Shown here: piece by piece, positions 1-48,520 of the stretch
How positions within the stretch are numbered: the stretch's first letter is position 1
Layout: each line of letters begins with the position of its first letter
Assembly: GCA_037349105.1 (NCBI GenBank)
Contig: JAYJMM010000102.1
Span: forward strand, 620,001 to 684,000
Direction: 5' to 3'
Length of the DNA stretch: 64,000 bases
Source of the DNA: Limnomonas spitsbergensis
Lineage: Eukaryota > Chlorophyta > Chlorophyceae > Chlamydomonadales
Position numbers and translations under genes: made by a program
Notes under the pieces: generated by a model
Database searches by the model: none
Told to the model about the DNA's origin: nothing
Seen by the model: only the letters and a program-made list of their open reading frames with translations

Positions 1-3000
1 TGTCCGTCTCCCGCCTCCGATACCGAATTCGCCCGACACTCCTCCCCCTCCCCCTCCCCCTCCCCCACCACTGCCAGGATACCCGCGATACCCGCCACCC
101 CCGCCGCCACCCCCGCCACCGCCCGCGGCCCCCCCTGATCCTCCCCCACCCTCCCACCCTCCAGGCTACAAAGCCCCGCCCTCTCCCCCCCCTCTGCTCC
201 CACCCAACCCATGGCCTAAATGGCCGAATCGTCCCCCTAGGGCTCCTCCCTTCCCGCCTCAAAGACCTCCCTGGCCACCGCGCCCCCCTCCCGTCCCCAC
301 ACCGCCACCCAATGCTCCCAGCCCCCGTCCACCACCCCGACCACCCCGGCCATCGCCCCCCTGGCCCCCTGGAGCCATCCCGGCCTCCCCCCCACGTCCT
401 CCCCCGCAGCCCCCGGCACCCCCAATGCCCCCGCCCGCCCCCCGGCCACCTCCGCCGCCCTATGCGGCCCTCAGCGTCCACTTCAAATGGAACAGCCCGT
501 TTTTCCAGCTGTCATGCAGCACGCTTGACATATACTACGGTGGCAAAGCTGTGGATCTGATGAACGGGATCCTCATATCGGCCAACCTGCACGTGAGACC
601 CAAACGTTACCTTAAACCCTAGATCTGATTGAAAAAACTTAAAACCATAACCTCTGAAACATGATCTCTCAACTCCTCTAATCCATGATCTCTTAATCAT
701 GACCTCCAAACCATCATTTTGGAAATGTTAGTTCTAAACCATCACCTTAAAATCATGACTTCCAAACCCTTAACCCTAAACATGACCCCTGAGCGCCTCT
801 CATGCTTGCTGCACCCATATGCGGCTATGCATACCCCCCTTGGGACCGTAGCTCCATGTGGCCCTCCTGCAGCTATGCATTTCACACCTTGCACACTTTC
901 CACACCTCCTACCCCAGGGACATGGCTCCATGTGGTCCTCCTGCAGCTATGCATTTCACACCTTGCACACTTTCCACACCTCCTACCCCAGGGACATGGC
1001 TCCATGTGGCCCAGGGGGATGTGGCCCTCCTGCAGCTATATATTTCACACCTTCCACACAGTTCAAACCTTTTAACCCAGAACCATGGCTCCATATGGCC
1101 CTACTGCAGCTATGCCTTCACATTTTTCACACCTTCCACACCTCCTACCGCCCAGGGACGTTGCACCACATGGCCCTACTGCACCGATGATGACTCGTCA
1201 CAGAAGGGCCTGTCGATCACAATGATGTTCGATGGCGTTTCTGTGGTAACGGCCATGCTGCGCTACATGGTCAAACAGCGGGGAGCGGAGACCCTGATCA
1301 GGGGCTTGCATGTGAGGCGGGTCAAGGGTAGACAAGGCCCCTGTCACCCAGGGGGTGGGACCCATCCCCCGGCTTATAATACAGGATATGTTTCCAAATG
1401 GTGTTATTAAGGGATTTCAGAAGCCTGTGTCGCTGGTTAGACCCTGCCTGAGGGTCTGTATCATGGTATGTGATAGAGAGGGAGCAAAGGAAGTCATCCA
1501 AGGCGTACATGAGAGAGGGAGAGGAAGGGAAGGGTAGACCATTATTCAAGTATTGCGTATGAGAGGTCCTATGTCTTTCATGAGGGCGTTGCTGGATGCA
1601 CGTTGCCTCACTTGAGTCTGCATGCAAATACCTGGGTAGGGGGGGGTAACACGCACCTAAGCCTAGTGTCCGCACTTTCAGGTATAGAGTTCAGCGTACC
1701 CCCGCACCTGAGAACGCTGGATTAATACGAAATGCTGTTGCTGTCACAGCACGGCTGTGAATCTAACCAATAGCCTCCGTTCTCCGAGAAAGGGCCAGGC
1801 AGTTGTAGCTGAACGTCCAGGTGCCTCCTGTGTCTGAATGCAGGTGTGCACACTTCACAGGCTGCAGACTACAAAATCCATCACCCTAATTGAGCTGTAC
1901 CCTTTTCGGATACCTGCAGATCCAGTGTGGCTCGTCCACCACATTATAAACCCTAACTTTACTGTGTCATTTTTGATGTATAAAGATCCCGTGTGGCACA
2001 TCCACTCCTCCACTACATCCTCAACCCTGATTATGCCGTGCCCTTTCTACAGATCCCGTGTGGCGCGTCCTCCATACAAATGTGGGACAGCCAGCAACAG
2101 CACATGACAGCATTCGTTTGCGACCCGGGGGACTTTTACCCATTGATGCAGGTAGGCACCTGTCAGAGGGGCAAGCTCACGATTTTAATTGGATAGGAGA
2201 TCAAACAGCTCTCGATCCGCCGGCTGATGGGGTGATTTTTTTTATTGTGAATTCCAAATTTAATTCCTGGGGCGGGTTTTGGTTGTGAGCTATATATATA
2301 TATATGTGCGTCATTCCACACCTACCATGCGCTGCTGTCACATTTACACAGGAAATTAGCGTGCTGTGGATTTGAAGGTTTAGGGTTAACTAAAACCCTG
2401 AAGCCTTAACCCTACACTACTCTACCCCATCCACTCAAAACCTGGGACCCTGCAATCCAGAACCTGAGGGTTATACTCTTGACACCCCGCAAAATACATA
2501 AAGCCATGGCAGCACAATCTGGCTGAAGATTTGGCGTACAGTATCATGCCGTATCATGCTGTATCATGCTAGCATGGTAGCACAATCTGGCTAATCATGT
2601 GGCGTATCATGCTGTATCGTGCTATCATGGTAGCACAATCCAGCTGGCTTAGCCTGTTCTGCATCAGGCCGCATCATGCAACCTTGGTAGAACAACCCGG
2701 TTAACCCTGTGCCGTGTCATGCCGTATAATGCTACATCGGGATTACAACCCAGCTTCACCTGTGCCGTAGGGTGCTGCCCTGCACTGAGCCACCAGTTGC
2801 AGATTGCATTTGGCAGCAGCTACAACCAGGCACCCCCCTCTTGCCCTCCACAATATTCCTGACCCCTCTCCTGCCCTGTGCCCCCACCTGCCTGGCCCAC
2901 ACAGCTGTACGGCGAGAACCTCACGTTCCAACCCATGCCCTTCTTGTGCTGCTCCTCGCCTCCTCCCGGCAACCCCCCGCGCACCCCCCCCAGCCCACCC

Positions 3001-6000
3001 CCACCCTTGCCGCAGCCCCCTCCCCCCTCCCCCAGGCCGCCCAGCTCCCCCCCGCCTCCCTCCCCACTACCGCCGTCTCCATTCCCGCTCTTCCCTCCAG
3101 GGACCATACTTCCGCCCTCACCACCCTCGCCACCCCCGCTGCCTCCTCCGCCTCCCTTCCCTCCCCCATCGCCTCTACCGCCCCCATCCCCCCCTCCTCC
3201 AGCTCCTCCCTCCCCGCCTCCCCCTCCGCTCCCTCCCCTCCTGCCTCTCCTACCCCCTTCTGAGCCTCCGGATATCCCAACCGAACCCAACTACCCCAAC
3301 TACCCTAACTACCCGGGAGTACGGATCAAGAGCCCCCCTGGCCCCCCTCATCCACCTATACGTAAGTTATGACTCACCGCTGAGGTAGGAACGGGAATCA
3401 GCTTGCAGTTACCTGACGAGATCTCTGCTCCAGGCGCTGTGGTTGCGGTTGAGAAATCCGAAATACTGCGGGGATCTTGATCCTGGAATTTTGTGCTTCA
3501 GGATAATAAAATGATGTGGTGGTTGTAGTTCTAGGGACTGCCCCGGAAAATGACCACCGTCTGCATGCCACACCCTCCGCCAGTACTATGGCATACATGG
3601 TACATCCCAATGCCTCAAACTCACTAATAGCCACACCACCTAGCGCTTTATCGTGACCATGAGTAGATATCTTCAATTGGATCCACAGCAAACATCCAAA
3701 ACCCTTATTCCTCTGCATCCCCGCAGCCGCCCCGAGCCCCAGCCTCCCACCAGGCGTCTCGTGGCCACCTCCCAGCCCTCCTCCCCCGCCCCCGTCGCCC
3801 GTCCCTCCACCCAAGCCTCCCCGAAGCCCAGCCTCGCCGCGCGCGCCCCGCAAGCCCGCCCCGCCCGCACCCCCTGATCCGCCGGCGCCCCCCCCGCGAC
3901 CACCGCCGCTGCCTCCGCCCTGGCCCGCGCCCCTGACCATCCAGCTACTGCTGCAGCTAGTGGGGTCCGACCTCACCAAGCTCATCCTCTACAACCAGGT
4001 AGTGGGCACAAATAGATACGTAAACGAGTGTGTGGATTAAGGAAGCCGCCCAAATTGGTTGAAGCTTGGGACATGGCTTCTGTGGGCATATGGAATTCAG
4101 AGTCAGTGGGACCAGACTCAGGAGCACTTTCACCAGCAGGGGGGTCACCAGGTCGGTCCAACTGACGTTCAAACAATGAATCTCAGAAGTGTCTATGCTC
4201 CGGACTCGTGCTCATGCTCAAACAGCTCCACCCATAACGCCGCCCTGGAACCCACAAGGCGGTGTCACAGCTGTCCTGCCCCCCACACTTTGATGCTATG
4301 CCCTGAACCTCTGGTGACCCACTATCCTAAGTGTGAACCCCTGCGTGACTTTCTTCTCTCTGTTTGTTGGCAGTTGGATGAGTTGCGAGTGGACACCTGC
4401 ACCGCGCTGAGGGTGGCGACACATGCCGCCTACTGCACGGTGGATGTGGGCTACTCCCCTGTTGGCTCAGTGGTGCTCTCAGTCTCTCTCATGGCCCGGC
4501 AGGTGACGCATCCATGGCTCGAATGATGTGCGAACTCGTTTATCATATAATGTGACAATGTGAAACATCTTCCAACTTATCATCAATCGGGCAGGCCAGC
4601 AGGTCGAGTGGGTTGATTACTGAGGGGTGGAGTGTCGTGATTACATGATCCACTTATTCAAGTCCATGTGTACGGCTCATACCCTAACAAACTAACAACC
4701 CACACACACCCCACCCGATGTTTGAGGACCACTCGCCAGCATCTTCCTCCACCCTCAGTCATCAATTCCTTTCACTGCTAATGAACCAAGCCGTTTTTCT
4801 GAGCGAGGCCCTGGGGCACCTTGCTGCAGGCCAGTGAGCTACTGGACTTGTACGTGGCTGCTGGATCTGCCCTCGTGGAGGTTTCCTCCACGTTCTCACC
4901 GGATTTCAAAGACCAATACCAGGTGTGTTTGTGAGTGGTCGCGAGGTGGGGTGCGTTCGAGTCATGTGCACGCTTCCCCAGCGGTGTTTGCTGTGATGCT
5001 TTGTAGGGGGGCACCATAGTTTCCATTGGTCCGATCATAATACCAATCCTTTTATTTTGGAAATCTGGATTTTGAATTGAAATCCTTCTTCCACGCACCA
5101 GTCATGCCCCAATTCACCTGTTGCGGTATGGCACGGTATGGCAGCTTGGATATTTGTTGCACAATATTTGACATGTCCTGCATAATTTGAGACTTTTGAC
5201 ATCCTTTTCGTGTTGCCCCTTTCACGCATGTACAAAAAAAATCAAAAATTATCTCACGTCTCCACACCTCACCTGTCCACACCTTCCATCTCATGTCTCC
5301 ACACCTCACCTGTCTACACCTCACATATCACCTTTCCACACCTCCCGTCTCACCTGTCCACATCTTCCACTTCGCGTCGCGATACCTCACCTGTCCACAC
5401 CTCACACCTCACCTCTCCACACCTTCCACCTCACAACAACTTCCGTTCAGGCAAACCTGATCTACGGCAACCTCGTCACATACATGGAGGTGCCCAAGCC
5501 ACCCGCCCCGCCCTACGCACCAGGTTACCAAGCGCCTCCCCAGCCTCCGCCACTGCCACCGCTGCAGCCGCAGCCGCTGCTGCCATCCTCCCCAGCGCGC
5601 CTCCCGCCGCCTACCCACAATGACACCGCTCTCTCCAGCCCGCCAACAACATCAACGTCACTACCCCCCAGCTTTGCACCGCCTCTGACTTCCGACATCA
5701 AGTCCATCATCCCTTCACCTCTCCCCGCGCCTCACTCGGCATCTCTCCACACCCCACCTGCGACTGCCCTGGCTGACACACTCTCTGAGGGGGAAGCCTC
5801 CCACGCTGACAACAAGCCCCTCGTCTACGCGCTGGTTGCGCTGTCAGCCGCCGCTGCGGTGGCGGCAGCCATCGCGGTGATTTTGTACTTCAGGTACTGC
5901 CGCACTGCACCTGGTTGGACATATTTCTGAAATTGCAGGTGTCCTATTTTCAGCTTTTTCAATCCAGCATTGAGGTTTGTATTTGAATTGCTGATGAGGA

Positions 6001-7256
6001 CATGAGGCTGATGAGAATGTAGGTATGTCTGCTGACAGGCAGGACCTATATTTATATTGAAAGCTGTTGTTTTCCTTGGCCTGAACAAAGTGTAAGGCTG
6101 GCCGCCCAACCCTTGTAAACATGCAGGCCTTTGAAAAGCTTCTATGCGGCCGGCTGTTATAGTACGGTACTGGCAGTTAGATATAAAAACCGTTGTATAC
6201 TTGTATCGGTATATAACCGCCAGTATCTCTTTCTTTCTTTTTAGTCTATCATGATTGGTACTGACTGTACTGCTGTTGTACTGATTGTACTGCTGCAGGT
6301 GTTGGCGTCGCACCCGGTGTGAGGCCAAGTATGAAGTCGGCAATCCGCTGTTCAGATCAAACATGGAACCCAAGGTGGGGGAGCTTTGAGCTCAAATGGG
6401 TGGGGTCTGTTGGGATCCATGATTTGCCCTAGAATCTTGAGTGTGGAGCTGAAAAACTCTGAGCACCGACTTCACTATTTTTAGTTACATTGCGGTATTA
6501 ATGTTTATTGTCGGACTCCTTTGCTTACAAGCGAAATATTGATGCTGCTTGCAGTGTCTCCAGGCCTCAGACCGCTGCAACTTGACACACGTGTGCCCGG
6601 ATCAGCAGGACCCAGTGCAGGGCTTCTCCGCCTCGTTCAAGCCGCGTGCGGGGATGGTCGGCCCACCCGCGCGGCAGCGGGGCGGTTCTGGTGACGGCAG
6701 CAAGAGAAGCAGCAGCGGGGGCGGCAGCAGCGGGCGGTCGGATGGGGGCTGTGCGCGATCCAGCGGTCCCCGCCGCTCACTGGCTGCAGGTTCGACAGCT
6801 GCAGGCAGCGGCATGCCATCAGGATCCGCCGCCTTTCCCAGCAGCCGCGCCTCGAGCTTGGGTCGCAGCGCTGCCGCAGGGGCTGCTGGCTCCGGAGCAT
6901 GGGCTGTTGGTTCTGGAGCATGGGCAGCAGGCGCCGGCGCCGGGTGCACCTTCCCGAGCAGCTTGGGCAGCTGGAGAGAGGCGGCGCCGGCGGGGATGGA
7001 GGACGACGGGGATGACGAGTGGTATCAGTCGGTATTACCGGGCGCCCCCGATGTCGTGTTGCCGAGGGTGTCCTCAGGGAGGCCATCTCCCTCACAGCGC
7101 CACTGGGCCGGGGCGCTGGACAGGCAGTCTCCCTTTGTGCAGCAACAGCAGCAGCCTGGGCTGGAGGACATGTTGTCTCCGCTGCCCACAGGCAGGCGGG
7201 GGGTACCCATGCTGGTCGCAAGCCAAAGCCTTGAGCGCAAAGCTCGGCCACAATGA
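1..7256 (+). CDS. Proline-rich type I membrane protein, 5' end outside window
   Basis: Ten exons chain in one frame: 2-592 (open to the window edge), 1204-1311, 2053-2151, 2905-3361, 3727-3998, 4374-4502, 4830-4922, 5451-5893, 6299-6374, 6555-7256. All junctions are GT-AG with matching phases (2970 nt, 989 aa plus TGA at 7254). Seen: a poly-Pro stretch (about 1-145), a non-repetitive block (about 146-285), a second Pro-rich stretch with PPSPPPP-type motifs, a second folded-looking block (about 430-610), a third Pro-rich stretch, and a membrane helix (about 707-730, LVYALVALSAAAAVAAAIAV) followed by a basic FRCWRRTRCEAKY stop-transfer segment. A 259-aa Gly/Ser/Ala/Gln-rich tail follows. Alternating hydroxyproline-type rods and globular blocks are typical of green-algal wall and matrix glycoproteins. 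A surface adhesin or receptor-like role is inference. No pherophorin domain was recognised. The start codon and any signal peptide lie upstream of the window. Confidence 0.8.
660..790. repeat. Degenerate AACC/CATGACC-rich intron repeat
   Basis: Intron 1 of the proline-rich gene contains short, imperfect copies of an 'atgacctccaaacc / taaaccctaa' motif. It is low complexity and no function is visible. Confidence 0.4.
850..1160 (+). repeat. ~74-bp tandem repeat in intron 1 of the proline-rich gene
   Basis: Units starting near 850, 925, 999 and 1088 share 'gctccatgtggccct..ctgcagctatgcatttcacacc'. The first two are nearly identical and the last two are diverged and length-variable. Each carries a CTGCAG that could act as a cryptic 3' splice site just before the real exon at 1204. 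Confidence 0.75.
1917..2060 (+). repeat. 67-bp tandem duplication of an exon 3 acceptor border
   Basis: The start of exon 3 of the proline-rich gene (AG|ATCCCGTGTGGCGCGTCC at 2051) is preceded by two diverged copies, at about 1918 (atccagtgtggctcgtcc) and 1985 (atcccgtgtggcacatcc). The spacing is a regular 67 bp, so the intron end plus exon start was duplicated at least twice. Confidence 0.7.
2285..2760. repeat. AT microsatellite and degenerate 'atcatgctgtatcatgc' repeat
   Basis: A (TA)n run lies at about 2290-2306. About four imperfect ~65-bp copies of a 'gtatcatgctgtatcatgct..catggtagcacaatc' motif follow at 2530-2750, all inside intron 3 of the proline-rich gene. Confidence 0.6.
5250..5440 (+). 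repeat. Pyrimidine-rich 'cacctcacctgtccacacct' repeat in an intron
   Basis: Short units of about 19-22 bp (ctccacacctcacctgtccacacc) repeat about eight times directly before the exon 8 acceptor at 5450. They create a very long C/T tract that would serve as an extended polypyrimidine tract. Confidence 0.75.
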
Positions 7257-13592: not shown

Positions 13593-16500
13593 ATGAACCT
13601 TCTCTCCTGTTTCAAGCCCTCCTTACACAACCAGCCGCATGAGACAGGCGCCTTTGACGACCTGGCCACTGTTGCCGACCACCATCCCTCTGACTCCCCC
13701 ACACTCACCGCTGGCGCAGCGACAGCCCACACCTCCACTTACCACCCCAGCGATACAGCCCCTCCGAGTGTGCAGCCTGGGTTGAGAGCTCCTCCCCATG
13801 CGCCAGCAGGGGCGCAACAGTCATGGTGCCTTTCAGACTTGTACACCGACGACAGTGAGCCTCTGCAGCCTGGCTTCACCTCAGATGACTTGCAGGTGCC
13901 TGCGACTGAGGCAGACGGGAAATTACAGCACAGGCGAGTTAATGACTCACGAGAACAGTCTTCGGGGGTCAAGGCGGGTACTGGCATCCTTGAGCCTGAT
14001 GGGCAGAGGCCAGCAGCTGCCCAGAACAAGGACCTGCCGCATTCTGAACCTGTGAAGAGGCAGCAGCAGCACTCCAAGACTGAGGTGCAGCAGCAGCAGC
14101 AGCAGCTGACCCAATTCGACCGCAGGCAGCAGCATGCAGCTTCAGCATACGAGAGCGGAGATGTGGTCAGCATGCAGCGTCAGCAGCAGCTAGATGACGA
14201 TAATTACGAGTACAACACCAAGCAGCAGCAGCAGCAGCAGTCCTCTGAAGCCTTGAGCCAGAGAGCAGACATGATCCTCATAGACAGCTCGGCTTCTTCT
14301 TCCTTGTCAGCGCGCGCCGCCCCCCCGGCCAACGAGTTGGGTGTGGCCAGCCCTGAAAAGGTCTCTCGAGGCAGTCCCATGTCAAGCTTGGCACACTCAC
14401 AGTCCACCAGGTGGGGGGAACAAGTGTGAAACGCTATGCGCTATCTCGTGCACTTCTTTGTAGCCTTGAGGCCTGTCTGCTCAACTCAAAACTGTCATGT
14501 GAGGGGGGAAATGTAAACTGCCCTATCTCTTGCAGCCCTTGCAGCCTTGATTAAAAAAGAGTGTGAAATGCCCTATCTCTTGCAGCCCTTGCAGCATTGA
14601 TTCAAAAAGAGTGTGAAATGCCCTATCTCTTGCAGCTCTTGCAGCCTTTTTCCTTAGCTACTTAACTCATATTCCTCAGTCCTGTGATCAACCCGGTGAC
14701 CTGCCTTTCCCCAGCTACAACTGGCCCTGGCCTGTTTTGGCCCACCCTCTCCCACCCTGTCCCACTCCTTTTATTTCACATCATCCCAACCTCTCCCCCT
14801 TTTTTATTTCCCACCAACTTAACCTTTCCAGCTTCAATTTTGGCACCATCTCAGCGTTTGCCACCCTATTTCTTTCACACTCCCGTCTGCCCCCACCCCA
14901 TGTCTGCCACCCGTGCAGGCCAGCCTCACACGTCGAGCCCTGCAGTTCTGATGCAGTGCCCAAGGTGCTTCGATTCGAGTCCTCGAGGCAATCGCCTGCT
15001 GTCCTGGTGGGCGACTGGGCGGGCGGGTGCATGCAATGTTCACAAAGAGGGCTGGTAGGCAGGCGCAGGCATGAAAGGCTCGAAAGGAAATCGCGTGCTG
15101 GCCTAGTAGGCGGGCAAGTGCATGTATGCTGGTAGGCAGGCGCAGCCGCGCATGTACGCATTGCTCAAAAGGAAATCGTGTGCTGGCCTTGTAGGCGGGC
15201 AAGTGCATGGAAAGTTTGCATGCTGTAGGCCGTTAGGTAAGCGCATGTATGCATTGCTCTCAAGGAAATTGTCTGTTGTTCTTTAGGCGGGTTGGGGTGC
15301 AGGCGATGTTCCCAAAGAAGAGGGCTCACAATGTTGGGTGTGGAGTGGGGACATGTTTGGAAGTTTGTGGTCTCACGTTACGAGGCAGGCGGAATTGCCT
15401 CTTGAAATGGGCATGAGCTTGTGATTAGGATGTTGCGTACCCGCTGGGTCCTGCTTAACGCTTGGCCGCATGGGGCTGACAGGGGATGAGCAAGCTCAAT
15501 TCCAGCTACCATGCACAGCCAGGACCAAGATGCAGTCGTGACACCCTCCTGTGTGAGGGGGGCTGGAACATGGAACCCAGCAACACACTCTTGTAGCCAT
15601 GCCCACATGCTACGTGATGGGGCAGGAACTTGGAAACAGGGTTGCTAGACAGGGGGAGAGAGAGGATCGGTTGGTCGATTGGATGCTTCGACCATGAAAA
15701 GACAAATGCCTTTAATGAATGCTACTGAGATGTCACCATGAATGCTACCAGGTGTCTTAAACCATGCGTGGGGTCTTAACCCATGCGTGGGGTCTTAACC
15801 CATGCCTGGGGTCTAAACCCATGCGTGGGGTCTTAACCCATGCGTGGGGTCTTAACCCATGCATGGGGTCTTAACCCATGCGTGGGGTCTTAACCCATTC
15901 TTAGGTGCCATAAACTTGATGTACAATCAGGCTTTCAAAGGAATGAGGTCAATGGCGATGCCATCCCCAGGAAAAGAAGAAAGGATGAGCGTGATTGAAT
16001 GGGGAAATGCACCTTTGACTGCATCCCAGGGTATCTGTGAACCAAATGAACTTGATCATGAACTGAATCTCATCATTAACTGAATCTGATCATTTACTAA
16101 ATCTGATCCCTGAACCCATGGCCCTCAAAGGCACGTCATGGAAGCGAGTTGTCGGATCTCTCAGATCTGTCCGGACCTGATGATGGGTATCAGAAGTACG
16201 GTCATGGGGACTCAGAGTCTGAAGCTGTGGAGCCGGAGTATTGGCCAGAGGAGGTGGATCATACACAGGTGGGTGGGGCTATGACACAAGTGTGAGATGA
16301 TGACTATCAGAAGTACAGTCCCCTGGGATTGGGAGTTGGAGGCTGCAGAACCGGAGTATTGGCCCGGGGAGGCGGATCATACACAGGTGGGTGAGGCTAT
16401 GACACAAGTGTGACATGATGACTATCAGGAGTACAGTCCCCTGGGATTGGGAGTTGGAGGCTGCAGAGCCGGAGTATTGGCCCGAGGAGGTGGATCATAC

Positions 16501-19500
16501 ACAGGTGGGTGAGGCTATGACACAAGTGTGACATGATGACTATCAGAAGTACAGTCCCCTGGGATTGGGAGTTGGAGGCTGCAGAGCCGGAGTATTGGCC
16601 CGAGGAGGTGGATCATACACAGGTGGGTGAGGCTATGACACAAGTGTGAGATGATGACTATCAGAAGTACAGTCCCCTGGGATTGGGAGTTGGAGGCTGC
16701 AGAGCCGGAGTATTGGCCCGGGGAGGTGGATCATACACAGGTGGGTGGGGCTATGACACAAGTGTGACATGATGACTATCGTAAGTACAGTCCCCTGGGA
16801 TTGGGAGTTGGAGGCTGCAGAGCCGGAGTATTGGCCCGGGGAGGTGGATCATACACAGGTGGGTGGGGCTATGACACAAGTGTGACATGATGACTATCAT
16901 AAGTACAGTCCCCTGGGATTGGGAGTTGGAGGCTGCAGAGCCGGAGTATTGGCCCGAGGAGGTGGATCATACACAGGTGGGTGAGGCTATGACACAAGTG
17001 TGAGATGATGACTATCATAAGTACAGTCCCCTGGGATTGGGAGTTGGAGGCTGCAGAGCCGGAGTATTGGCCCGGGGAGGTGGATCATACACAGGTGGGT
17101 GGGGCTATGACACAAGTGTGACATGATGACTATCAGAAGTACAGTCCCCTGGGATTGGGAGTTGGAGGCTGCAGAGCCGGAGTATTGGCCCGAGGAGGTG
17201 GATCATACACAGGTGGGTGAGGCTATGACACAAGTGTGAGATGATGACTATCAGAAGTACAGTCCCCTGGGATTGGGAGTTGGAGGCTGCAGAGCCGGAG
17301 TATTGGCCCGAGGAGGTGGATCATACACAGGTGGGTGGGGCTATGACACAAGTGTGACATGATGACTATCAGAAGTACAGTCCCCTGGGATTGGGAGTTG
17401 GAGGCTGCAGAGCCGGAGTATTGGCCCGAGGAGGTGGATCATACACAGGTGGGTGAGGCTATGACACAAGTGTGACATGATGACTATCATAAGTACAGTC
17501 CCCTGGGATTGGGAGTTGGAGGCTGCAAAGCCGGAGTATTGGCCCGAGGAGGTGGATCATACACAGGTGGGTGAGGCTATGACACAAGTGTGACATGATG
17601 ACTATCATAAGTACAGTCCCCTGGGATTGGGAGTTGGAGGCTGCAGAGCCGGAGTATTGGCCCGAGGAGGTGGATCATACACAGGTCACGAGGTGTGTGG
17701 ACAATGTCCTAGAAATGAAGTCCAAAAATCTGAGGACAAAAATCTGAGGACAGAAATCTGAGGACAAAAATCTGAGGACAAAAATCTGAAGACCTAAAAT
17801 CTGAGGACAATCAGGACAGCAATGTGGGTGGATCTACGACGGCCGACGGTTGAATGAGATTAATAGGCTGGGGGCCTGGTTAGTGACAGGATGACAAATG
17901 TTTGGCCCGAGCAGGTTGATCACACAGGGTAAAAAAAAGTGTCCGAGCAGGTTGTTCGTTTGCACAGGGTGAAAAAGAGTGTTGGCCGGAGCAGGTTTGT
18001 CGCAAAGGGTGAAAAAGAGTGTTGGCCGGAGCAGGATTATTGCACAGGGTGAAAAAGAGTGTTGGCCGGAGCAGGTTAATTGCACAGGGTGAAAAAGAGT
18101 GATGGCCGGAGCAGGTTTATCGCACAGGGTGAAAAAGAGTGTTGGCCGTAGGAAGTTTATTGCACAGGGTGAAAAAGAGTGTTGGCCGGAGGAAGTTTAT
18201 TGCACAGGGTGAAAAAGAGTGCTGGCCCTTGCAGGTTTATTGCACAGGGTGAAAGAGAGTGTTGGCCCTAGCAGGTTATCGCACAGGGTGAGAAAGAGTG
18301 TTGGCCTGAGCAGGTTTATCGCACAGGGTGAAAAAGAGTGTTGGCCCTAGCAGGTTTATTGCACAGGATGTAAAAGAGTGTTGGCCCGAGCAGGTTTATT
18401 GCACAGGGAGAAAAAGAGTGTTGGCCTGAGCAGGTTTATCGCACAGGGTGAAAAAGAGTGTTGGCCGGAGCAGGTTTATCGCATAGGGTGAACAAGAGTG
18501 TTGGCCGGAGCAGGTCAATTGCTCGGGGTGAAAAAGAGTTTTGGCCGGGGCAGGTTTATCGCACAGGGGGTCGTGGTGGAATGAATGATGATGGGCAAGG
18601 GCTGGTACAACATGGAGGGAGGGAGGGTGGTGGTGAGGGATCCGGGTAGGTGGGGCAGGGCTGTTTCAGCTATATGTGTCACTGAGCAGGGCTTGTGAGT
18701 TACTGATGTACTTGAAATGGGTTTTTATTTTGTCGTAAGGATGGTGTTCCCATCTACCGGTAGTTCGCTTTCGCACATAATTAATGTTGTTTGGGTTTGA
18801 GGACTACGGTAATTATCAACAGTCAAAGCCAGTTTCAGTCAGAAATTGAGAGTTTTCGTCGGAATTTTGTTCTTCTCTGAGGGCAGCATTGAAAGAACAT
18901 TGACTCATACCTGAGGTAAGGCAAATTAAATCTACAGCAGTCGGAGATAAGAAAACCCAGGGCCTAGACTTTCTGCACCTGTCACCTGTGGCATCTCAAC
19001 GGTTGTGCTTCAGGATGCGGAGGACGAGGAGGAACGAAGGCACGCGGCCGCTCAAGCTGTCGCCTCGCATTACGGTGGAGCTGTGCCCAGCGGAGGCGTT
19101 GGCATGCCTTTGCACCTGGCCGCCGCAACTGCGATGGTTGCTCGCCAAAAGTACGCAACAGCCGGGCAGGACGGTTTCACCACGTACGCAACAAACGCTG
19201 CGTTTGTTGCATCCAAGGCGGACGCAAATGCCAGCACCGTCTCCGCCACGCCTTCCGTTGAAAAGGCGGCCGTGGGCGCCGTCTGCCTCCAGGACGATGA
19301 CAACTTCAGACAATCCGAGGAGAGCTACACCCTGCCGACAACCCGAGGCGGTAAGCGGCGGTCCGGCGCCGCCAGCCAGCCGGCCAATCAGAACCATGGC
19401 AGGGTGTCCGTTGATGCTGGCAGTAGTTACTCGTCGGATGAGGGTGGAGCGGAGCTGCCGCCGCGGTCTGGCCGGCCCCGGGAGTCGGCATCGCCTGCAT

Positions 19501-34877: not shown

Positions 34878-37800
34878 ATGGCAGTTGTAAGGAGCCCGCC
34901 CCTGTCTACCATGCCTTGCAGGCCACGCAGTACTGACCGCAGCGTTGGCAACCGGGCCTCATGCACTGCAGATGGTCCATCGCGCTCAGTCAAGCTGCTG
35001 AGGAGGCCTAATCAGCTCCAGCAGATGGGCAAGCGCGGCGTTTCGGTACATGCCCAAAGCGCCGCATCAGCCCCCCGGCCTGAGGAGCTGGTCACCCTGA
35101 CGACCTGGCTGCTAAAGCAGGAGATTGCCGGCCACATGGACATTGACCTGTTTGCTGTGCTGACATCTATCGCGTCTGCTTGCAAGCAGATCAGTGCCTT
35201 GGTGAGAATGGGTGCAGCCGGGGCAGTCAGGCATTGTCTCTTTTTTCTTGACTCAGCTGAATGTCAGCTACACTCCGGTCGCTGGCCGGGGGCCCCATTT
35301 GTGGCCAGCCTTGCTGCTTTGGCCACCAGTCGTAGGCCGGTCCTGGTTTGGTCCTAATTGGGCCTTAAGCGGCCGCAGGGCGGCCTGCCGAAGTTGGACT
35401 CGTAGCCGAAAAAAGTATCGCTGGAATCAAGGGCAAAGAGGCACCCCCGAGATCTCCCCGAGCGACTGTATCCCCACTCGCAATGAAGTGGGGAGGGGCC
35501 AGGTCGCAAGGTTTTGTGGAGAGGTGCTGGCACGCTTTAACTTTGTGAGGTTGAATGAAACCATCATGCATTACACATCACCCGTCAACCACCAGTTTGG
35601 TAGGCGGTTCATAGCGCTCCTGAATATGGTTTGCACCCTCCAAGTTCCGTGTTGAGAATCTATCAACATAACCAGGGCATGAACAGAACATGAACATGAG
35701 CAAGATCTGAGACCTCTGTGACAGCTCGAAAAACCTAGAGGCTTCATGTTACCGGGAGATGTTACTGTGAGCCCTGTGGTGGCATAATCCTCCCTGTTTG
35801 GTAAGTTGGTCGAATCAACTCTGGAGGCTTATCACATTAGTTCCAAGAGCCACATGGCCTTTGAGCTTTTACCAGGCCCATTATTCATCAACTTATGACA
35901 GGTGCACACAGCTCTTACTTCTAATATTTATATAATATTTGAAGTGCTCTCATGAGATGTTAGTCAGTCTTGCAATAATTTGCACACACCCTTCCCACTG
36001 CTGGCCTCTTGCTGAGCGCCGATGACCAGAGTGCAAAGGGTGGGATCAAATCATTGGCTGACTAACATATCATGAGAGTACTTAACAATATTATAAGTTT
36101 GTGGTGCCCACATGCCCCAACCAGCCCCGCCCCCCTAACAGATGCTGATGGTATCACCTTTTGAAGGTTCGCACAGCTCCCACTGCTGGCCTGTTGGTTA
36201 ACGCCGGCGACCAGAATGCGAGCGGGGATGACCAAAAGAGGCTGGACATCATCGCCAATGACATATTTTGCGCTGCAGGTACGGTCAGCCATGTAAACCA
36301 ATGGCTGTTTTTATGCGGCGTGTATGTCGAGCTGTGTACATTAGCCGCTCGTTGGTCCCTTGCTTGCCAAGTTTGGATCCTTGACACGAATTCATGAAAC
36401 CTGCTTGTTAAGTTTGATGGGCAGAAGCCTGTATGTGCCCCAATAAAGTGTTTTTGTCGTAAGCTTGCCGGTATGCCCCCCCTTCAAAAATGCACTGACC
36501 TGTTGTCTCTCTGCCTTACTGCAGTTGCGAACTGTGGCCGGACAAGCATCACTGTCAGCGAAGAAGAGGAGAAGCCAGTCGCTGTCGAGTCGGTTGCGGG
36601 GGGCGCCTACATCTGTTGCTTTGATCCCATTGACGGGTGAGTTCACCCGCCACCGCTCTTCCTTAAGACGAGCAGCAACAGGTTTTATTTTCTTGGTGTT
36701 ATGGATGCATTGTTGGTCACCAGGAGTGGTCACTCTCTGATGAAGAGATTCACCGCAGGTGCTGAATTCATTGTTTGGTTACCACTTTGGTTACGACTCT
36801 AACCAATGACCCTTAAGGAAACACCGGCAGCAGCATGTACGAGGGACACTGACAGGCCTAGGTGTTCAGAAATAACTAGGATACTGACATCACTAGCTTT
36901 GGTTGCCTGCTGCTCAGCAGTCGTACACCTACTGTCACAGTCACAGACTTGCATGCCCACTTCATGCCTGGGGTACCTAGGGTCCCCTACCTTCCTTTAT
37001 TGCCCGGCATGCTTCCATGCCTCCCTGGCCTTTTCAACGCGTTGTGGTCTCAATCTGCCTGTTGTGGTCTCAATCTGCAAGACAGGCCAGACAGGCCATG
37101 TAGAGCTTGAAAAAGTCCAAACTTGCCGATTGCAACCGGAAGTGCCGTGCGGTTCTTTTCAGTGGCATCTGCCACCCGCCCACCACCCACACCCTTGTGG
37201 CGCACTCTCTAGGCCCCTGTTCAGCATGCTCTGACCGACCCTCAAGTCAAACGTGTCCTCCCTGTTGAATCCCCCCACCCTGTCTCCCCTCCTCCCGACT
37301 CTCTCTTGAGTTTCCTTCTGTCCCAAGTCCCATCCGGACAGTTGGGCGCCCATCGCGTCCAGGGTTTAGGTTTTAGGGTCCAGGTTGAAGGTTTAGGGTC
37401 CAGGGTTTAGGGTTTTTGAGGGTTTAAGGGTTTCGAGCAGGTCCCAGGGGTGTACCGATATTCACTTGTACTCCCCGTTACCTACTCAGGTCGTCCAATC
37501 TGGAGGCGTGTATTTCATCCGGGTCCATCTTTGGGATTTACAAACCTGGAGATTGTGTTGTCGAGGACTGGGATGACGCCGACACCATCTTGGACAAGTG
37601 CATCACCAATGTCCGAAGAGTGAGTGCTTGGAACTGCACATGCATCAAGTATCTATTATATATACAATTATATATATGTGTGATCACCTTCTCACTCTTG
37701 TTCACCCCAATGTACACATGCAGACTGGCACTCATCTGGTGGCCGCAGGATACTGCATGTACAGCAGCAGTACAGCCACCTTCTCACTCTTTATCACCCC

Positions 37801-40512
37801 ATCGCACATGCAGGCTGGCACTGATCTGGTGGCTGCAGGATACTGCATGTACAGCAGCAGTACAGCCACCTTCTCACTCTTTATCACCCCATTGCACATG
37901 CAGGCTGGCACTGATCTGGTGGCTGCAGGATACTGCATGTACAGCAGCAGTACAATCCTGGTCCTCAGCGTCGGGACTGGCGTGTACGGCTTCACAATGG
38001 ATACAATGGCGGGTAGGATCTGGAATGGTTGGATACTCGTACGCATGCTCCACCTTTTTATGTTAGGGTGCTTCAGCTACAATTTAGCTACATCTCGACC
38101 TACAGCTGGCGGGGGGGAGGGAGCCTGTTGCAGCTGGCCCTGCTGCTCAGGCGACTGTGGGTAGTCAGGTCAAGGTATGTTCCCCATTGGTCTAGACGAT
38201 AGGCAATGGTATGCTTGCACGCTCGGCTAGGTAATTTTCTATTTGTTCTGTTAGTTATGGTGTTTTTCTGCAACATCCGTGATTAAGCAATGCGGGTGAC
38301 CTAATACTTGTGTCCGAGGGCTTCCCCCCGATTCTCCTCCCTGCCGCAGGGGTGTTATACCTGACACTCCCCAGCATTATGATCCCGGACCTGACATTTG
38401 GTGTTGTCTGAGGCTTGCCCCCTCAATCCCCCCCTGATCCTCACCCCTGCCGCAGGGGTGTTATACCTGACACTCCCCAGCATTATGATCCCGGACCTAA
38501 CATCTGGTGTTGTCTGAGGCTTGCCCCCCTCAATCCCCCCCCTGATCCTCACCCCTGCCGCAGGGGTGTTATACCTGACACTCCCCAGCATTATGATCCC
38601 GGACCTAACATCTGGTGTTGTCTAAAGCTTACCCCCCTCAATCCCCCCCCTGATCCTCACCCCTGCCGCAGGGGTGTTATACCTGACACTCCCCAGCATT
38701 ATGATCCCGGACCTGACATCTGGTGTTGTCTAAAGCTTACCCCCCTCAATTCTCACCCCTGATCCTCACCCCTGCCGCAGGGGAGTTCTACCTGACGCAC
38801 CCCAACATAAAGATCCCAGATCCCGGCCAGCAGGTCTACAGTGGAAACGAGGGGAACACTGCGCTGTGGGCTCCGGAGCTGCGTGAATATCTACAGGTGA
38901 GGTGTGGCTCATGGATCCGAGGGCTGACATTTGTTTTCCTCTTTGAGATTATTGAACAAGGTGCACCGCCCCTTTCCTACATTGCAGAGTTGGGTAACTT
39001 TGCCTTAGGCTGACCATGGAACCTGCCAGTTTCTTTTAGGACTGGGTGCTGAGCATGTTGCTGTATCTTCTCGTTGCGAGAGATAGTGATACACAGTCGG
39101 GTGGACAACGTGATGGAATCAGCCTGGTGCTCGATGTGCTGCACTAAACATTTCAGCTTCAGCCTTCAAGGAGCTGTTTTCAATTTGTGGCAGCTGCTGC
39201 CTGGCTTCCGACTCAACCTTTGCTGTGAGCAGAGCCGGTTTGAATTCAAATGGAACCCAGCCCTGGAATCCTTGATGCACGCAGGATCTGAAGATGAGCC
39301 CAGCGACGGTTCAAAGCTTGAACTTTTTGGGCGAGGCCAGGCTGATTTCAAATTGTTTCGAATAAATAATATGTATCCTTAACGCCCGCAGGAGCTGAAG
39401 AAGCCCAGTGATGGCTCGAAGCCTTACTCGTACCGCTACATTGGTGCACTGTGCCCTGATTTCCATCGTATCCTGATGTACGGAGGCGTGTGGTGAGTGC
39501 GGCTAGCGACTGGCGTGCAATGGAATATTATATTCATGGGATAGAACACCTGTTTGATTTGTAATTTTGTGTTAGGGCTTGCCCTTTTTTTGCTGAGTGA
39601 TTTATATCCCCAGCTTTCTATCGTGCTATGTTGTTTGCTATTTTGAAACCCGAAGGGGCCACTGGCTGATCTTATTCTCCGAGCTAGTTTGTTTAGTGTT
39701 TGATCCAGTGTATGGGACTATGAGCACCTGTCCCGTGCATACAATCTGATGCTACGTTGGCCTCAATTCAAATTCAAAACTTATCTAACGAATCCCTGTA
39801 CACCATCCCTGAAGGTTGTATCCACCTGACATCAAAGCTCCCGATGGAAAGGCGAGGCTGCTGTATGAGGTAAGCACCTTGTGGCAGACCGCTGACATCC
39901 TGGCACAAAGTGCTTATTTTTTTGTGACTCGGCTACATGTCAGCTACACTCTGGCCTCTGGCCAAAGGCCCCAGCTGTGGCCCGCCAAACTGTTTTAGAC
40001 ACCAGTCGTAGGCCAGTCCAGGTTCGGTACTTTGGTCCCAATCGGGCCTTTGGCGGTCGCGGGGCGGCCTGCTGAAGGTGGACTCGTAGCCGGAAAGAGG
40101 AACACTGAAGTGCCTGTGGCACTGGTCTCTCAAAGCGGATCTGTGAAAATGTCAACAATATGTGGCATGAACGATTGTCCGCTGTTTTTGAACCTGTTGG
40201 CATGCTTGCTTATGAGAATGTGCGGGCCCTGTGACATCTCAACCACAGCCACGTGCTTCTCTCATTACGTTTTTTTAAGGGTTTGGATTTGCTAATGGAT
40301 CCTCACGATTTCCCGCGCAGGTTGCACCCATGTCTTATCTCGCCGAGCAAGCTGGGGGCGTGGCATGTGTGGGACCGTTGGCCGATCAGAGAGTGCTGGA
40401 GGTGGTCCCACAGACGGTGCACCAGAAGTCACCTCTGTTCGTCGGCAGCACTAGTGAGATGACCAAGCTGCAGACTTTCCTCAAGGTTAGGGCGGAAAAG
40501 GCTGCAGCGTGA
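34878..40512 (+). CDS. FBP: Chloroplast-type fructose-1,6-bisphosphatase
   Basis: Hydrolyses fructose-1,6-bisphosphate to fructose-6-phosphate, a Calvin-cycle and starch-synthesis step in the plastid stroma. Exons: 34878-35201, 36167-36278, 36525-36636, 37490-37619, 37904-38012, 38781-38896, 39392-39492, 39815-39869, 40321-40512; 1251 nt, 416 aa, all phases matching and close to the usual plastid length. Residues 1-70 are Arg/Ser-rich and look like a transit peptide. Family signatures: SEEEE (157-161) and DPIDGSSN (179-186) for metal binding, AGYCMYSSST (234-243), RYIG and MYGG substrate contacts, KARLLYE (347-353) with metal ligand E353, then the APMSYLAEQAGG signature. The 170s regulatory loop is short and keeps two cysteines (205, 220), which could form the thioredoxin-controlled disulfide. 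The third loop cysteine of land-plant enzymes is Arg225. Introns carry ghost copies of exons 2, 5 and 6. Confidence 0.95.
35225..35425 (+). repeat. Dispersed repeat family B, copy in FBPase intron 1
   Basis: Closely matches 39905-40115 in FBPase intron 8: 'gactc.gct..atgtcagctacactc', 'ccaccagtcgtaggccggtcc', 'cggcctgcygaagktggactcgtagcc'. Weaker relatives lie at 38060-38200, 50530-50640 and 51395-51560. Confidence 0.7.
35980..36060 (+). pseudogene. Ghost of FBPase exon 2
   Basis: The string '..cccactgctggcctcttgctgagcgccgatgaccagagtgc..ggg' mirrors the true exon 2 at 36167 (cccactgctggcctgttggttaacgccggcgaccagaatgcgagcgggg), displaced by about 180 bp. It is diverged and lacks a donor, so it is a decayed tandem duplicate in intron 1. 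Confidence 0.65.
37362..37435 (+). repeat. Degenerate telomere-like tract in FBPase intron 3
   Basis: Runs of 'gggtttaggttttagggtcc' and 'agggtttagggtttttgagg' are diverged TTTAGGG repeats ending about 55 bp before the exon 4 acceptor. Confidence 0.6.
37714..37903 (+). repeat. Two in-frame 90-bp duplicates of the FBPase exon 5 start
   Basis: ACATGCAG acceptors end at 37723, 37813 and 37903, exactly 90 bp apart. Each is followed by the same 51-nt exon start (ctggcactgatctggtggc..gcagcagtaca); the first copy has a few substitutions. The 39-nt linker is intron-like, yet the whole stretch is open in the FBPase frame. Use of an upstream acceptor would therefore insert 30 or 60 residues without a stop. 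Confidence 0.92.
38060..38200 (+). repeat. Dispersed repeat family B, diverged copy in FBPase intron 5
   Basis: Contains 'cttcagctacaatttagctacatc', '..cctgttgcagctggccctgctgct' and 'ggtcaaggtatgttccccattgg', similar in order to copies at 51395-51560 and 50530-50640. Confidence 0.45.
38340..38780 (+). repeat. Four ghost copies of the FBPase exon 6 acceptor border (~108 bp)
   Basis: CTGCCGCAG acceptors end at 38349, 38454, 38563, 38671 and 38780 (the real one). Ghosts read GGGTGTTATACCTGACACTC where exon 6 reads GGGAGTTCTACCTGACGCAC. The ghosts are more similar to each other than to the exon, meet an in-frame stop (gttgtctga or a frame change), and are separated by a C-rich polypyrimidine segment. 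Confidence 0.9.
39905..40115 (+). repeat. Dispersed repeat family B, copy in FBPase intron 8
   Basis: Second close copy of the 35225-35425 element, same orientation, ending 'gaaggtggactcgtagccgg'. Confidence 0.7.
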
Positions 40513-40690
40513 CGATGCTGGTGCCAAGCTGCCAACCAGGGGCTGCAGACCTTCCTCGAGGCCAGGGCGGAAAAGGCTGCAGTGTGATGAACTGATGATG
40601 CTGGTGCTGAACTGCAGACGTCGCTCGAGACCAGGGCGGATTGGGCGGGAGCATGATGATGCTGGTGCTCAGGGGCTGCTGGTGCTGGTG
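40513..40690 (+). repeat. Tandem copies of the FBPase C-terminus and stop codon
   Basis: The end of exon 9 (ctgcagactttcctcaagg..gcgtgacgatgctggtgc) is repeated near 40543 (ctgcagaccttcctcgaggc) and 40614 (ctgcagacgtcgctcgagac). Each copy carries its own tga. They lie in the 3' UTR and decay with distance. Confidence 0.75.
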
Positions 40691-42599: not shown

Positions 42600-43075
42600 C
42601 TAGTAGCTACTGGTGCAAATCGTGGTCGGTTGGATATGGGTAAAAATATGGATAAACAGGGTGACACCTGCGGGGAGAATGGTCACATTTTCGAGGGAAG
42701 TGGGTCTAGAGAATGCAGCATAGGCTTCGCTAGACGTCTCAATACCTTCAACGTCATTATCAGACCCAGTAAACCCGAAAGCACTATGGCTTGTGGTTGT
42801 ATTGTTGCCTAACCCATTGGCAGCCTTGGCTACCTTGGCAGTGGAGGCACAAAGCATAACTTTTAGATTCGCTTCTGTCAGGGCACCGATGAAAGTTTTG
42901 ATGAAAAAGCATTTTCCAGTGCCACCAGGACCCTGAATTCAGTACAGCATCGGTAAAGCGGGGTTTCTCGAAGCGGCAGCAATCACCTTTAAAGCTGCAG
43001 CCTGGTCAGGGGACTGTAGATTTAAATTAATATCGAGAGCAACTGCCTCATCAAGATGTTTTGCAGGCGAGTACA
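42600..43075 (-). pseudogene. Decayed SF1 helicase fragment (Walker A)
   Basis: Minus strand, one frame: LNLQSPDQAAALKVIAAA, then a TGA stop, then IQGPGGTGKCFFIKTF (Walker A/motif I) and VMLCASTAKVAKAANGLGN (motif Ia-like), open to about 42600. The order Q-motif, GxxGTGK and ASTxK is that of UPF1/Pif1-type superfamily 1 helicases; here K precedes C where S or T is normal. Codons are AT-rich (att aat tta aat), unlike the GC-biased host genes nearby. This suggests a viral or transposon origin (inference). The later helicase motifs are absent. Confidence 0.6.
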
Positions 43076-43740: not shown

Positions 43741-43789
43741 GGTTGATAGGGTTTAGGGGCGGGTTCGGCGGTTATATGGTTCATGTGCT

Positions 43790-45230: not shown

Positions 45231-45261
45231 AGCCTCAGATAACACGATGAAGCCGCACTGG

Positions 45262-45590
45262 ATAAAGGAACCTACCAGGCTCGATGTGGGATGAGGTCGC
45301 TGGTGACAGCCCTGGCCCTGAAGAAAATACGTTTAAAAACAGGGGGGCAATATCAAACATAATTTGTAAGGTTAGTGCCACTGGCAGCACCACAAAGGAC
45401 TGCGCTGAACTGTGGAGTAGTAGTAGTACTGCGTGACTGCGAATAGTACCAACCAAGCCGGTCATGCCAGTGAGTACATGGCAGGAACCTACCAGCCTCG
45501 ATGTGGGATGTGGTCGCTGGTGACAGCCCTGGCCCTGAAGAAAAGGCGGATAAAAACAGGGGGTCAGTATCAAACATAATTTGTAAGGCT
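45262..45590. repeat. ~107-bp direct repeat, copies 218 bp apart
   Basis: 'cctaccaggctcgatgtggg' through 'cagggggycartatcaaacataatttgtaag' occurs at about 45270-45370 and 45488-45588 with few differences. A copy of the 43.8-44.4 kb purine-rich unit follows. Confidence 0.8.
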
Positions 45591-45849
45591 AAGGGGTGGG
45601 AAGGAGGGTGAAGGATGAGAGGGGGACGGGGAGGGGGAGGAGGAGGAAGGGGAAGAGGGAGGAGGGGAGGGAGAAGAGGGGACAGTAGGACAGAGATGTG
45701 GGGAGGGTCGGGAGGAAGGAGGGACGGAGGAGAGGAGACGGTAGGACAGAGATGATGGGAAGTTTATGACGGACAGGATGCTTCCGTGGGCGTGATGTGG
45801 CTTCGTAGTTCAACAGCGTGTAGATAACTGCCTGGGATGAGGTCCATGG

Positions 45850-48520
45850 AGGCTTGAACCTGAATGCCGGCATTGGCGCCCATTAACCAAGAAGCACCAG
45901 CATGGGGCAGGCCACAACTGCACAAAACAGGAAAAGGTGGTCAGTCAACATGGCTTCGATTGAGCAGTATGGCCCGAGGTATGGCCCATCGTAGTCACGG
46001 TAACAAATGGAGGAAATGCGCAAAAATGTGTATCAGCTGTCTAGCCATGATGAACCTCTGCGCATGTTTAGCCTACAAGCTTGAGGCTTACCTGGCATGT
46101 GGACAGGCACATTGACTGGCGTTGCCCGCAGTGATGCCATCCTGTTCAGCACAGGAGCACGGCCCTCACTGGAACTGGAATGGCTTCAGTGGAGCAGTAT
46201 GGCCCATAACAAACACGGTAACAAATAAAATGCGCAATCAATCAAGCAACTGTCAAGCCAAGGTGAACCTGTGTGCATGTTCAGCCTACCCGCATCAAGC
46301 TCACCAGGTCATGGGTCCTGCGCAGCAACGCCGTTCTGTCCGGTGGCAGCACAGCCTGCTTCATACTACATGCCAATGGCACCAGCATGGTGAAGGCCAT
46401 GGTCCCTGCACAAAACAGATTAAGGTGGTCAGTAAGCACAACAGATGAGCAAGCAGTGGCCATGGCATGGCTGCAGTAGAGCATTATGGCCCATGGCAGT
46501 CACGGTAACGAATCACACTGAAAACACGCATTACAACAAAGCAGCTGTCCAGCCATAATGAACAGGTGCCTATGTCCAGCCTACCAGCATCGAGCATACC
46601 TGGCATGTACCCTGGCTTGTTGACTGGCCTTGCCCGCAGCAACACCATACCGTGCGGTGGCAGCACTGCCTGCTTCGTAGTTCAACAGCATGGCGGCACC
46701 CTTGAGGGGAGGCATGGCGGGTGCAGCTGCTGACCTGGCGTGTACATAACTGCCTGTGATGAGGTCCATGGAGGCTTGAACCTGAATGCTGGCATTGGCG
46801 CCCATTAACCAAGAAGCACCAGCATGGGGCAGGCCACCACTGCACAAAACAGGAAAGGGTGGTTTGTCAACACAGCCGATTGGCCTTCACTTGCCCTGAC
46901 ATGACTTCAATTGAACAGGATGGCCCATGGTAGTCACGGTAACAAATGGAGGATATGCGCAAAAATATCCTTCACCTGTCTAGCCACGATGAACCTGTGC
47001 GCATGTTCAGCCGACAAGCTTGAAGCTTACCTGGCATGTGACCTGGCAAGCTGACTGGAGCTTCCCGCAGTGATGCCATCATGTTCGGCCGCGGCACCGA
47101 CAGGTTGAGCATGGTGCATGCTATCCCTGCACACAGCAGAAAAGGGTGCTCTGTCAGCACAGGAGAATGGCCCTCACTGGAACTGGAATGGCTTCAGTGG
47201 AGCAGTATGGCCCATAACAAACACGGTAACAAATAAAATGCGCAATCAATCAAGCAACTATCAAGCCAAGGTGAACCTGTGTGCATGTTCAGCCTACCGC
47301 ATCAAGCTCACCAGGTCATGGGTCCTGCGCAGCAACGCCGTTCTGTCCGGTGGCAGCACAGCCTGCTTCATACTGCTTCATACATGCCAATGGCACCAGC
47401 ATGGTGCAGGCCACGATCCCTGTACAAAACAGATTAAGGTGGTCAGTAAGCACAACAGATGAGCAAGCAGTGGCCATGGCATGGCTGCAGTAGAGCATTA
47501 TGGCCCATGGCAGTCACGGTAACGAATCACACTGAAAACACGCATTACAACAAAGCCGCTGTCCAGCCATAATGAACAGGTGCCTATGTCCAGCCTACCA
47601 GCATCGAGCATACCTGGCATGTACCCTGGCTTGTTGACTGGCCTTGCCCGCAGCAACGCCATACTGTCCGGTGGCAGCACTGCCTGCTTCGTAGTTCAAC
47701 AGCATGGCGGCACCCTTGAAGGGAGGCATGGCGGGTGCAGCTGCTGACCTGGCGTGTAGGTAATTGCCTGGGATGAGGTCCATGGAGGCTTGAACCTGAA
47801 TGCCGGCATTGGCGCCCATTAACCAAGAAGCACCAGCATGGGGCAGGCCACCACTGCACAAAACATGAAAGGGTAGTCAGTCAACACAGCCAATTGGCCT
47901 TCACTTGCCCTGGCATGGCTTCAATTGAACAGGATGGCCCGAGGTATGGCCCATGGTAGTCACGGTAACAAATGGAGGAAATGCTTAAAAATGTCCATCA
48001 GCTGTCTAGCCACGATGAACCTGTGCGCATGTTTAGCCTACAAGCTTGAAGCCTGCCTGGCATGTGGACAGGCACGTTGACTGGCGTTGCCTGCAGTGAC
48101 GCCGTCATGTTCGGCCGCAGCACTGACAGGTTCAGCATGGTGCATGCCATCCCTGCACACAACAGAAATGGGTGCTCAGTCAGCACATTAAGATGGCATC
48201 ACTGGACCTGGCATGGTTGCAGTAGAGCAGTATGGCCTATAACAGACTCGATAACAAATGGGGGGGAAATGCGCAATCAATCAAGCAGCTGTCAAGCAAA
48301 GATGAACCTGTGCGCATGTTCAATCTGCCCGCATCAAGCTCACCAGGTCATGGGTCCCCCAGCAACACCGTTCTGTCCGGTGGCAGCACCGCCTGCTTCA
48401 TTCTACATGCCCATGGCACCAGCATGTTGCAGGCCACGGTCCCTGCACAAAACAGAGTAAGGTGGTCAGGAAGCACAACAGATTAGCAAGCACTGGTGAC
48501 TGGCCCTGGCATGGCTGCAG
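45850..48520 (-). CDS. Higher-order repeat carrying phase-matched exons (tandem exon array)
   Basis: A ~1.01-kb unit is present about 2.6 times. Each unit has three related monomers marked by 'tatggccca..cacggtaacaaat' (near 46196, 46480, 46918, 47206, 47493, 47930, 48228). On the minus strand two monomers hold clean exons. Type A is 96 nt (48152-48057, 47126-47031); type C is 240 nt (47853-47614, 46839-46600). Acceptors are GTGCAG or CTGCAG and donors GTAAGC or GTATGC; one is GCAGGC. All start with one nucleotide and end with AG, so any number can join in frame. They encode Ala/Gly/Ser/His-rich peptides (AAAEHDGITAGSSSQLARSH; AGSAATARYGVAAGKASQQA). The third monomer has the same exon form but an in-frame stop in every copy. 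No start or terminal exon was found. It could be a modular repeat-protein gene or its relic. Confidence 0.45.

Follow-up and report, generated by a model that had tools for sequence, protein, structure and literature searches.

Tandem duplications across predicted splice junctions probably lengthen introns in a genomic window of the green alga Limnomonas spitsbergensis

The window analysed here, a 64,000-nucleotide stretch of the genome of the green alga Limnomonas spitsbergensis (GenBank assembly GCA_037349105.1, contig JAYJMM010000102.1, positions 620,001 to 684,000), contains tandem duplications that cross predicted exon-intron borders in three predicted genes. The gene models, all on the plus strand like the features described within them, were built by hand on the basis of splice consensus, reading phase and an open frame. 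They comprise a proline-rich gene (1..7255; 10 exons, with its 5' end beyond the window), a giant Ala/Pro-rich gene (13593..30888; 9 exons) and an FBPase gene (34878..40512; 9 exons). The first two were each modelled as a single open frame, and the joined reading of each of the three models contained no internal stops. Tandem Repeats Finder (TRF) returned 112 rows for the window, and no tRNA genes were found in it.

FBPase was the sole model of the three supported by homology. Its joined protein matched plant FBPase structures across the full length, and its identity was 83% to the best relative and 70% to Monoraphidium minutum, the closest named species. For the proline-rich gene, a protein search gave no homologue at E <= 0.001, and neither this gene nor the giant gene had a Pfam family of note in the parts scanned. 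Because these two genes lack homology support, their junctions are predictions; those of the proline-rich gene have one open frame and splice consensus as their basis. A tentative label for the proline-rich gene, pherophorin, was dropped, as no such Pfam family was found in three pieces of it and no protein matched at the same E-value limit. In the giant gene, the start of exon 2 was set at 16145 (16148 in the open-frame check); this acceptor is uncertain, but the donor at 16268 is the relevant site here.

To all 50 junctions examined, all of them predicted (25 acceptors and 25 donors), we applied a uniform scan with the same 60-base probe, which was also placed at control positions, 821 in introns and 465 in exons. 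A position was called duplicated when the probe centre lay within a local duplication with a score of at least 18, the level below which 99.9% of shuffled intron probes fell, and the controls were probed alike so that the search was not confined to sites where extra junction copies, hereafter ghosts, were expected. Seven of the 50 junctions were found within local tandem duplications, namely six of the 25 acceptors (proline-rich exons 2 and 3; FBPase exons 2, 5, 6 and 7) and one of the 25 donors (giant gene exon 2). Five of the 25 acceptors were retained when the score cut was raised to 20. Compared with the shuffled intron-probe level of 18, copy scores reached 60, which places the copies themselves beyond chance. 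An earlier sequence-only reading of this DNA had listed seven loci with tandem copies across splice junctions, ranging from perfect to decayed; such copies are present, and five of the seven listed loci were confirmed as junction-crossing.

Four of the duplicated acceptors are in the FBPase gene. Upstream of exon 2 (real start 36167), we recovered the ghost proposed earlier as two decayed copies of the acceptor region, of which 35887-35922 crosses the junction and 35985-36060 represents the exon part only. An inverted repeat (35931-35982 and ~36046-36095, with 44 of 53 aligned positions matching) flanks one of these decayed ghosts, which thus lies within a hairpin resembling a small foldback element. 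Across the acceptor of exon 5 there is a 90-bp array of three copies (37685..37954), as had been described, with ghost acceptors at 37724 and 37814 that are open and in frame and the real exon at 37904. The exon 6 acceptor is crossed by a 108-bp array (38324..38817) with ghosts at 38350, 38456, 38564 and 38672 and the real exon at 38781; it has 4.6 copies, in agreement with the approximately 108 bp and five copies first reported. These exon 6 ghosts lead into a stop. They read GVLYLTLPSIMIPD and the real exon GEFYLTHPNIKIPD; five relatives agree on GEF at its start, and it was the ghosts that changed, not the coding copy. The scan additionally identified a ghost of the exon 7 acceptor (39268..39317; real exon start 39392), which is frameshifted and had been absent from the first reading.

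The FBPase coding end is duplicated as well. Tandem copies of the coding end and stop codon (40478..40668, with copies at ~40542-40597 and 40612-40668) lie at a coding/non-coding border without a splice site, and they too had gone unlisted. A dispersed repeat of ~180 bp was observed in FBPase introns 1 (35241-35423) and 8 (39917-40107), with 148 of 191 positions matching. A weaker copy of it is located at 51383-51521, and 29 bp resembling its end occur within coding exon 5 of the giant gene (22970-22998, 27/29).

The proline-rich gene carries two duplicated acceptors. One is the exon 2 acceptor array (845..1176), found by the uniform scan and missing from the first reading, which consists of 74-, 89- and 164-bp units with ghost acceptors at 918 and 992 and the real exon start at 1156. 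The other is a decayed duplication of ~67 bp in three copies across the exon 3 acceptor (1871..2074), with exon-like ghost starts at 1920 and 1986 and the real exon at 2053, and its unit and copy number are those given before.

The duplicated donor is in the giant gene, where the first copy of a 118-bp array (16230..17686) holds the exon 2 donor (exon end 16268) and the later copies are intronic. This locus had been read as 13 copies, and TRF gives 12.3. The same intron contains a 40-bp array of 16.7 copies (17902..18568) that weakly resembles the exon 2 end (23 of 28 exon bases alike, under the scan threshold); that it might descend from the exon 2 donor junction is a guess. A 31-bp repeat of 2.2 copies (25974..26041) starts at the exon 6 donor (exon end 25978). 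Here the repeat itself, first described as 32 bp in two copies, stands, and its junction-spanning character is marginal, at about five exon bases; the repeat has only about four of the last five exon 6 bases in common and was not flagged as spanning by the uniform scan. A 38-bp array of 63 copies (27727-30126) occupies most of intron 7 of this gene and touches no splice junction.

The duplicated segments are ~65-180 bp in length, and some were further amplified into arrays. Three of the TRF arrays (16230-17686, 37685-37954 and 38324-38817) have minisatellite-like units overlapping an exon-intron boundary. Identity between copies ranges from 50% to near 100%, with private differences between copies. 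The ghosts of the seven junction-crossing families each copy one border only, and never an entire exon together with its two splice sites. Calculated from the coordinates, border-crossing copies account for ~2.6 kb of the three genes' intron sequence, which totals 18.6 kb.

The sequence-only reading had further claimed that duplications are preferentially anchored on exon-intron borders. In the control probes, duplication was called at 348 of 821 intron-interior positions, a figure inflated by three large arrays, and at 134 of 465 exon-interior positions; junction bases are thus duplicated no more often than other bases, and if anything less often than intron bases. We also performed a family test, in which the non-coding and junction islands were grouped into 19 independent families, arrays were collapsed and units of the same length were placed randomly. 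The null omits wholly exonic placements, which were assumed to have been purged, and the count leaves out a weak intron island (1351-1361), the exonic islands and the stop-codon family; the family list and the unit lengths were set partly by judgement. Seven of the 19 families crossed a junction, against 3.84 expected (P = 0.059), and P varied from 0.005 to 0.20 depending on the margin, the unit lengths, the way arrays were collapsed and the family list. When one gene at a time was left out, P was 0.023 and 0.078, and without FBPase it was 0.45 (3 of 15 families against 2.42 expected). With the 31-bp donor repeat restored to the list together with four short arrays, the count was 8 of 24 families against 4.78 (P = 0.073). 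The data hint at an anchoring of duplications on borders without establishing it, and the claimed preference is gone without FBPase.

We then considered whether the copies are used. Ghost acceptors were tested where the AG was retained, which covered every acceptor family but that of FBPase exon 2 (five of six), and the giant-gene ghost donors were collected by exact motif. A stop would follow in 9 of 11 ghost acceptors, the two exceptions being those of FBPase exon 5, and in all 11 ghost donors, which speaks against the earlier proposal that the copies supply usable exons and isoforms. The accompanying proposal of intron gain was likewise not borne out, as in none of the three models had a duplicate given rise to a new intron; the duplicates lengthened introns already present. 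The FBPase protein from the original junctions aligned end to end with five relatives, with no gap or insertion at any affected junction. Among the 120 relatives listed of 1871 matches, insertions of at least 3 aa at the four affected FBPase junctions were seen in 0/117, 0/120, 0/120 and 2/120, and the stretch that the exon 5 insert would interrupt is conserved without insertion in all 120. This colinearity and the reading frames would make ghost use costly. The extra copies look non-coding and are probably spliced out, and FBPase exon 5 is the sole in-frame candidate for an alternative isoform, a possibility suggested by its open ghosts.

The periods of the repeats differ between exons and the rest of the genes. 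Among non-overlapping TRF arrays within the three genes (score at least 60, unit at least 9 bp), the period was divisible by three in 12 of 12 wholly exonic arrays versus 6 of 18 others (Fisher P = 3.3e-4), the latter made up of 4 of 13 intronic, 2 of 3 junction and 0 of 2 edge arrays. That repeats in coding sequence keep the frame is a well-known rule. Junction-crossing duplications are visible at all because the exon sequence in them escaped this rule.

Two further candidate lines of evidence were set aside. The direction of the ghosts, upstream of acceptors and downstream of the donor, was dropped because it is forced by tandem geometry. A sharp drop of identity at the junction, as might be left by concerted evolution halted by selection, was not used, being inconsistent across loci and its P values uncorrected. 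For the nearest FBPase exon 6 ghost the intron side was identical at 57 of 61 positions versus 33 of 44 on the exon side (P = 0.011), and two other ghosts gave P = 0.11 and 0.32. In the giant gene P was 0.04-0.10 (3 ghosts, longer exon stretch) or 0.058-0.67 (11 ghosts, shorter stretch), and at proline-rich exon 3 the drop was reversed (P = 0.016 and 0.040).

The pattern is best read as ordinary tandem duplication filtered by selection. At the seven of 50 predicted junctions concerned, it is fairly likely that the extra copies are spliced out, so that introns lengthen and the protein is unchanged, with no special attraction of duplications to splice sites needed. The proposed course begins with the observed duplications across a border, here six acceptors and one donor. 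By geometry, a copy crossing an acceptor always places the extra acceptor upstream and leaves the remainder of the exon on the last copy, and a donor gives the mirror image. Reading frames and the FBPase relatives suggest that splicing keeps the junction nearest the intact exon, and that the ghosts would leave with the intron. Free of coding constraint, the ghosts could then decay, and could also amplify. The periods suggest that exon-internal duplications would persist only in frame, and that intronic, junction-crossing and post-stop ones may persist at any length. Junction-crossing arrays would then be a by-product of a high rate of tandem duplication and a selection filter. Local tandem duplication is indeed frequent, both within introns and exons and across the stop codon. 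Copies of this kind at the FBPase stop codon, where there is no splice site, count in favour of such a filter.

Several observations weigh against this interpretation, and most of them bear on the possibility that splice acceptors are true hot spots of tandem duplication, for example through pyrimidine-rich tracts that aid strand slippage or break repair, with introns growing mainly from their 3' ends. A null that allows wholly exonic placements lowers the expected number of junction-crossing families to 2.65 (P = 0.006), although it ignores selection. Six of the seven junction families are at acceptors, and acceptors alone give 6 families against 1.99 expected (P = 0.008; 0.0007-0.035 over the settings tried on the full gene set). 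In FBPase, four of eight acceptors are affected, and all four of its non-coding families lie on acceptors (P = 0.014). Short-unit tandem repeats are also reported to be denser toward intron ends in Chlamydomonas and Volvox (PMC3887541). However, the acceptor subset was chosen post hoc, without FBPase it falls to 2 against 1.22 (P = 0.35), and six acceptors to one donor gives only about P = 0.06 (one-sided, by coin-toss arithmetic). Judgement enters the family list and the unit lengths, and the published excess concerns both intron ends and units of up to 50 bp (PMC3887541). We regard acceptor hot spots as a rather unlikely explanation. It is similarly doubtful that such hot spots seed 3' intron growth and leave datable ghost acceptors which, occasionally open as at FBPase exon 5, would be raw material for isoforms.

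Other points against the filter interpretation concern whether ghosts are spliced. The colinearity of FBPase with its relatives would reflect the ancestral structure, and does not tell which acceptor the alga uses. The two ghost acceptors of FBPase exon 5 keep the frame open and would add 90 or 180 bp (30 or 60 residues) in frame and free of stops. Ghost sites might thus be used in some transcripts, giving isoforms or new introns, and the copies would be exons or introns in the making. Most ghosts do retain their splice dinucleotide, AG or GT, and a new spliced intron in potato (PMC4974935) and novel introns from boundary repeats in human paralogues (PMC2812944) provide precedents. Set against these are the stops behind nearly all ghost sites tested and the position of the exon 5 insert in the insertion-free stretch described above, and one stop-free unit of 3n length among seven families is unsurprising. 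This explanation appears quite unlikely. Arrays of this sort are hard to assemble, but repeats collapsed or expanded by misassembly are a very improbable source of the pattern given the private differences between copies, their 50% to near 100% identity and the location of the arrays within models that stay open, with the remaining caveat that copy numbers of near-perfect arrays could be wrong.

The remaining locus proposed earlier, an array at 46-48 kb (45816..48555, minus strand), is of a different kind from the seven junction families. It is an exon-plus-intron amplification in a putative gene, a nested array in which cassettes of ~290-490 bp are arranged in ~1 kb units. Each cassette contains a whole candidate exon, and some copies have indels. 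Eight acceptor motifs were identified, and the donors are six GT, one GC and one lost. The repeat was upheld, and it was not counted as a junction-crossing locus because its units are whole exon-plus-intron cassettes of a gene that is itself putative.

Other elements were observed elsewhere in the window. Frames of a non-LTR (long terminal repeat)-type retroelement lie at 52433-56880 on the minus strand, with a reverse transcriptase (PF00078, E 2.6e-27) and an RNase H (PF00075, E 1.1e-11). A piece of an AAA/PIF1-like helicase frame (42603-42938, minus strand; E 3e-5 to 7e-4, under the Pfam cut-offs) is perhaps a Helitron remnant. Long minisatellites outside the three genes have units of 49 bp in 32 copies (57403-58975) and of 43 bp in 71 or more copies (60542-64000, running off the window end). 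A 56-bp repeat of 1.9 copies (10522-10626) ends beside a possible minus-strand donor (~10631) in a putative minus-strand gene at ~9.2-12 kb.

Intron lengthening is less studied than intron gain, and within these introns exon edges occur as near-perfect copies, as amplified ones and as decayed ones, which makes steps of lengthening visible side by side. If the acceptor-crossing excess were true genome-wide, it would link the growth of introns, and the availability of spare acceptors, to a mutation process that can be measured. Without such an excess, the pattern would be a clear case of selection, in which exonic repeats keep the frame and border-crossing ones need not.

The pattern is real and instructive, and it is ordinary in kind, with close published precedents. 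A literature search brought up no description of ghost exons biased toward acceptors in green algae, which is not proof of absence. The model of Rogers (1989) and the experiment of Hellsten (2011) are mentioned in the paper on potato RdRp. In that gene, a boundary-crossing duplication became a new spliced intron plus an extra exon, as demonstrated with RNA reads and relatives (PMC4974935), and given this precedent the route to intron gain is sound in principle. The duplicated unit there is the 3' end of an intron plus the 5' part of the next exon, as in the six acceptor families; unlike in potato, the copies described here most likely remain in the old intron, several were amplified to at least three, and they are known from DNA alone (PMC4974935).

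The closest system-wide study is that of human internal tandem repeats at exon-intron boundaries, which reported 27 intron modifications and in which minisatellite-like units at boundaries likewise alter or lengthen introns (PMC2812944). The human cases were found by copy-number differences between paralogues and by transcripts, whereas ours come from a single gene copy read at the DNA level. In 31 surveyed genomes of plants and algae, tandem repeats were more frequent toward intron ends, foremost in Chlamydomonas and Volvox, with units of 1-50 bp (PMC3887541). Our window resembles this survey in that green-algal introns are repeat-rich, more so near their ends, and that units in coding sequence are of 3n length; it differs in its junction-crossing units and ghost exon pieces, neither of which figures in the parts of the survey available to us. 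In Drosophila, some novel introns arose when coding sequence bearing a proto-splice site was tandemly duplicated (PMC2891723). There, as here, tandem duplication is a source of change in gene structure, but the Drosophila introns were exonic duplicates, whereas the units in L. spitsbergensis consist of intron plus exon.

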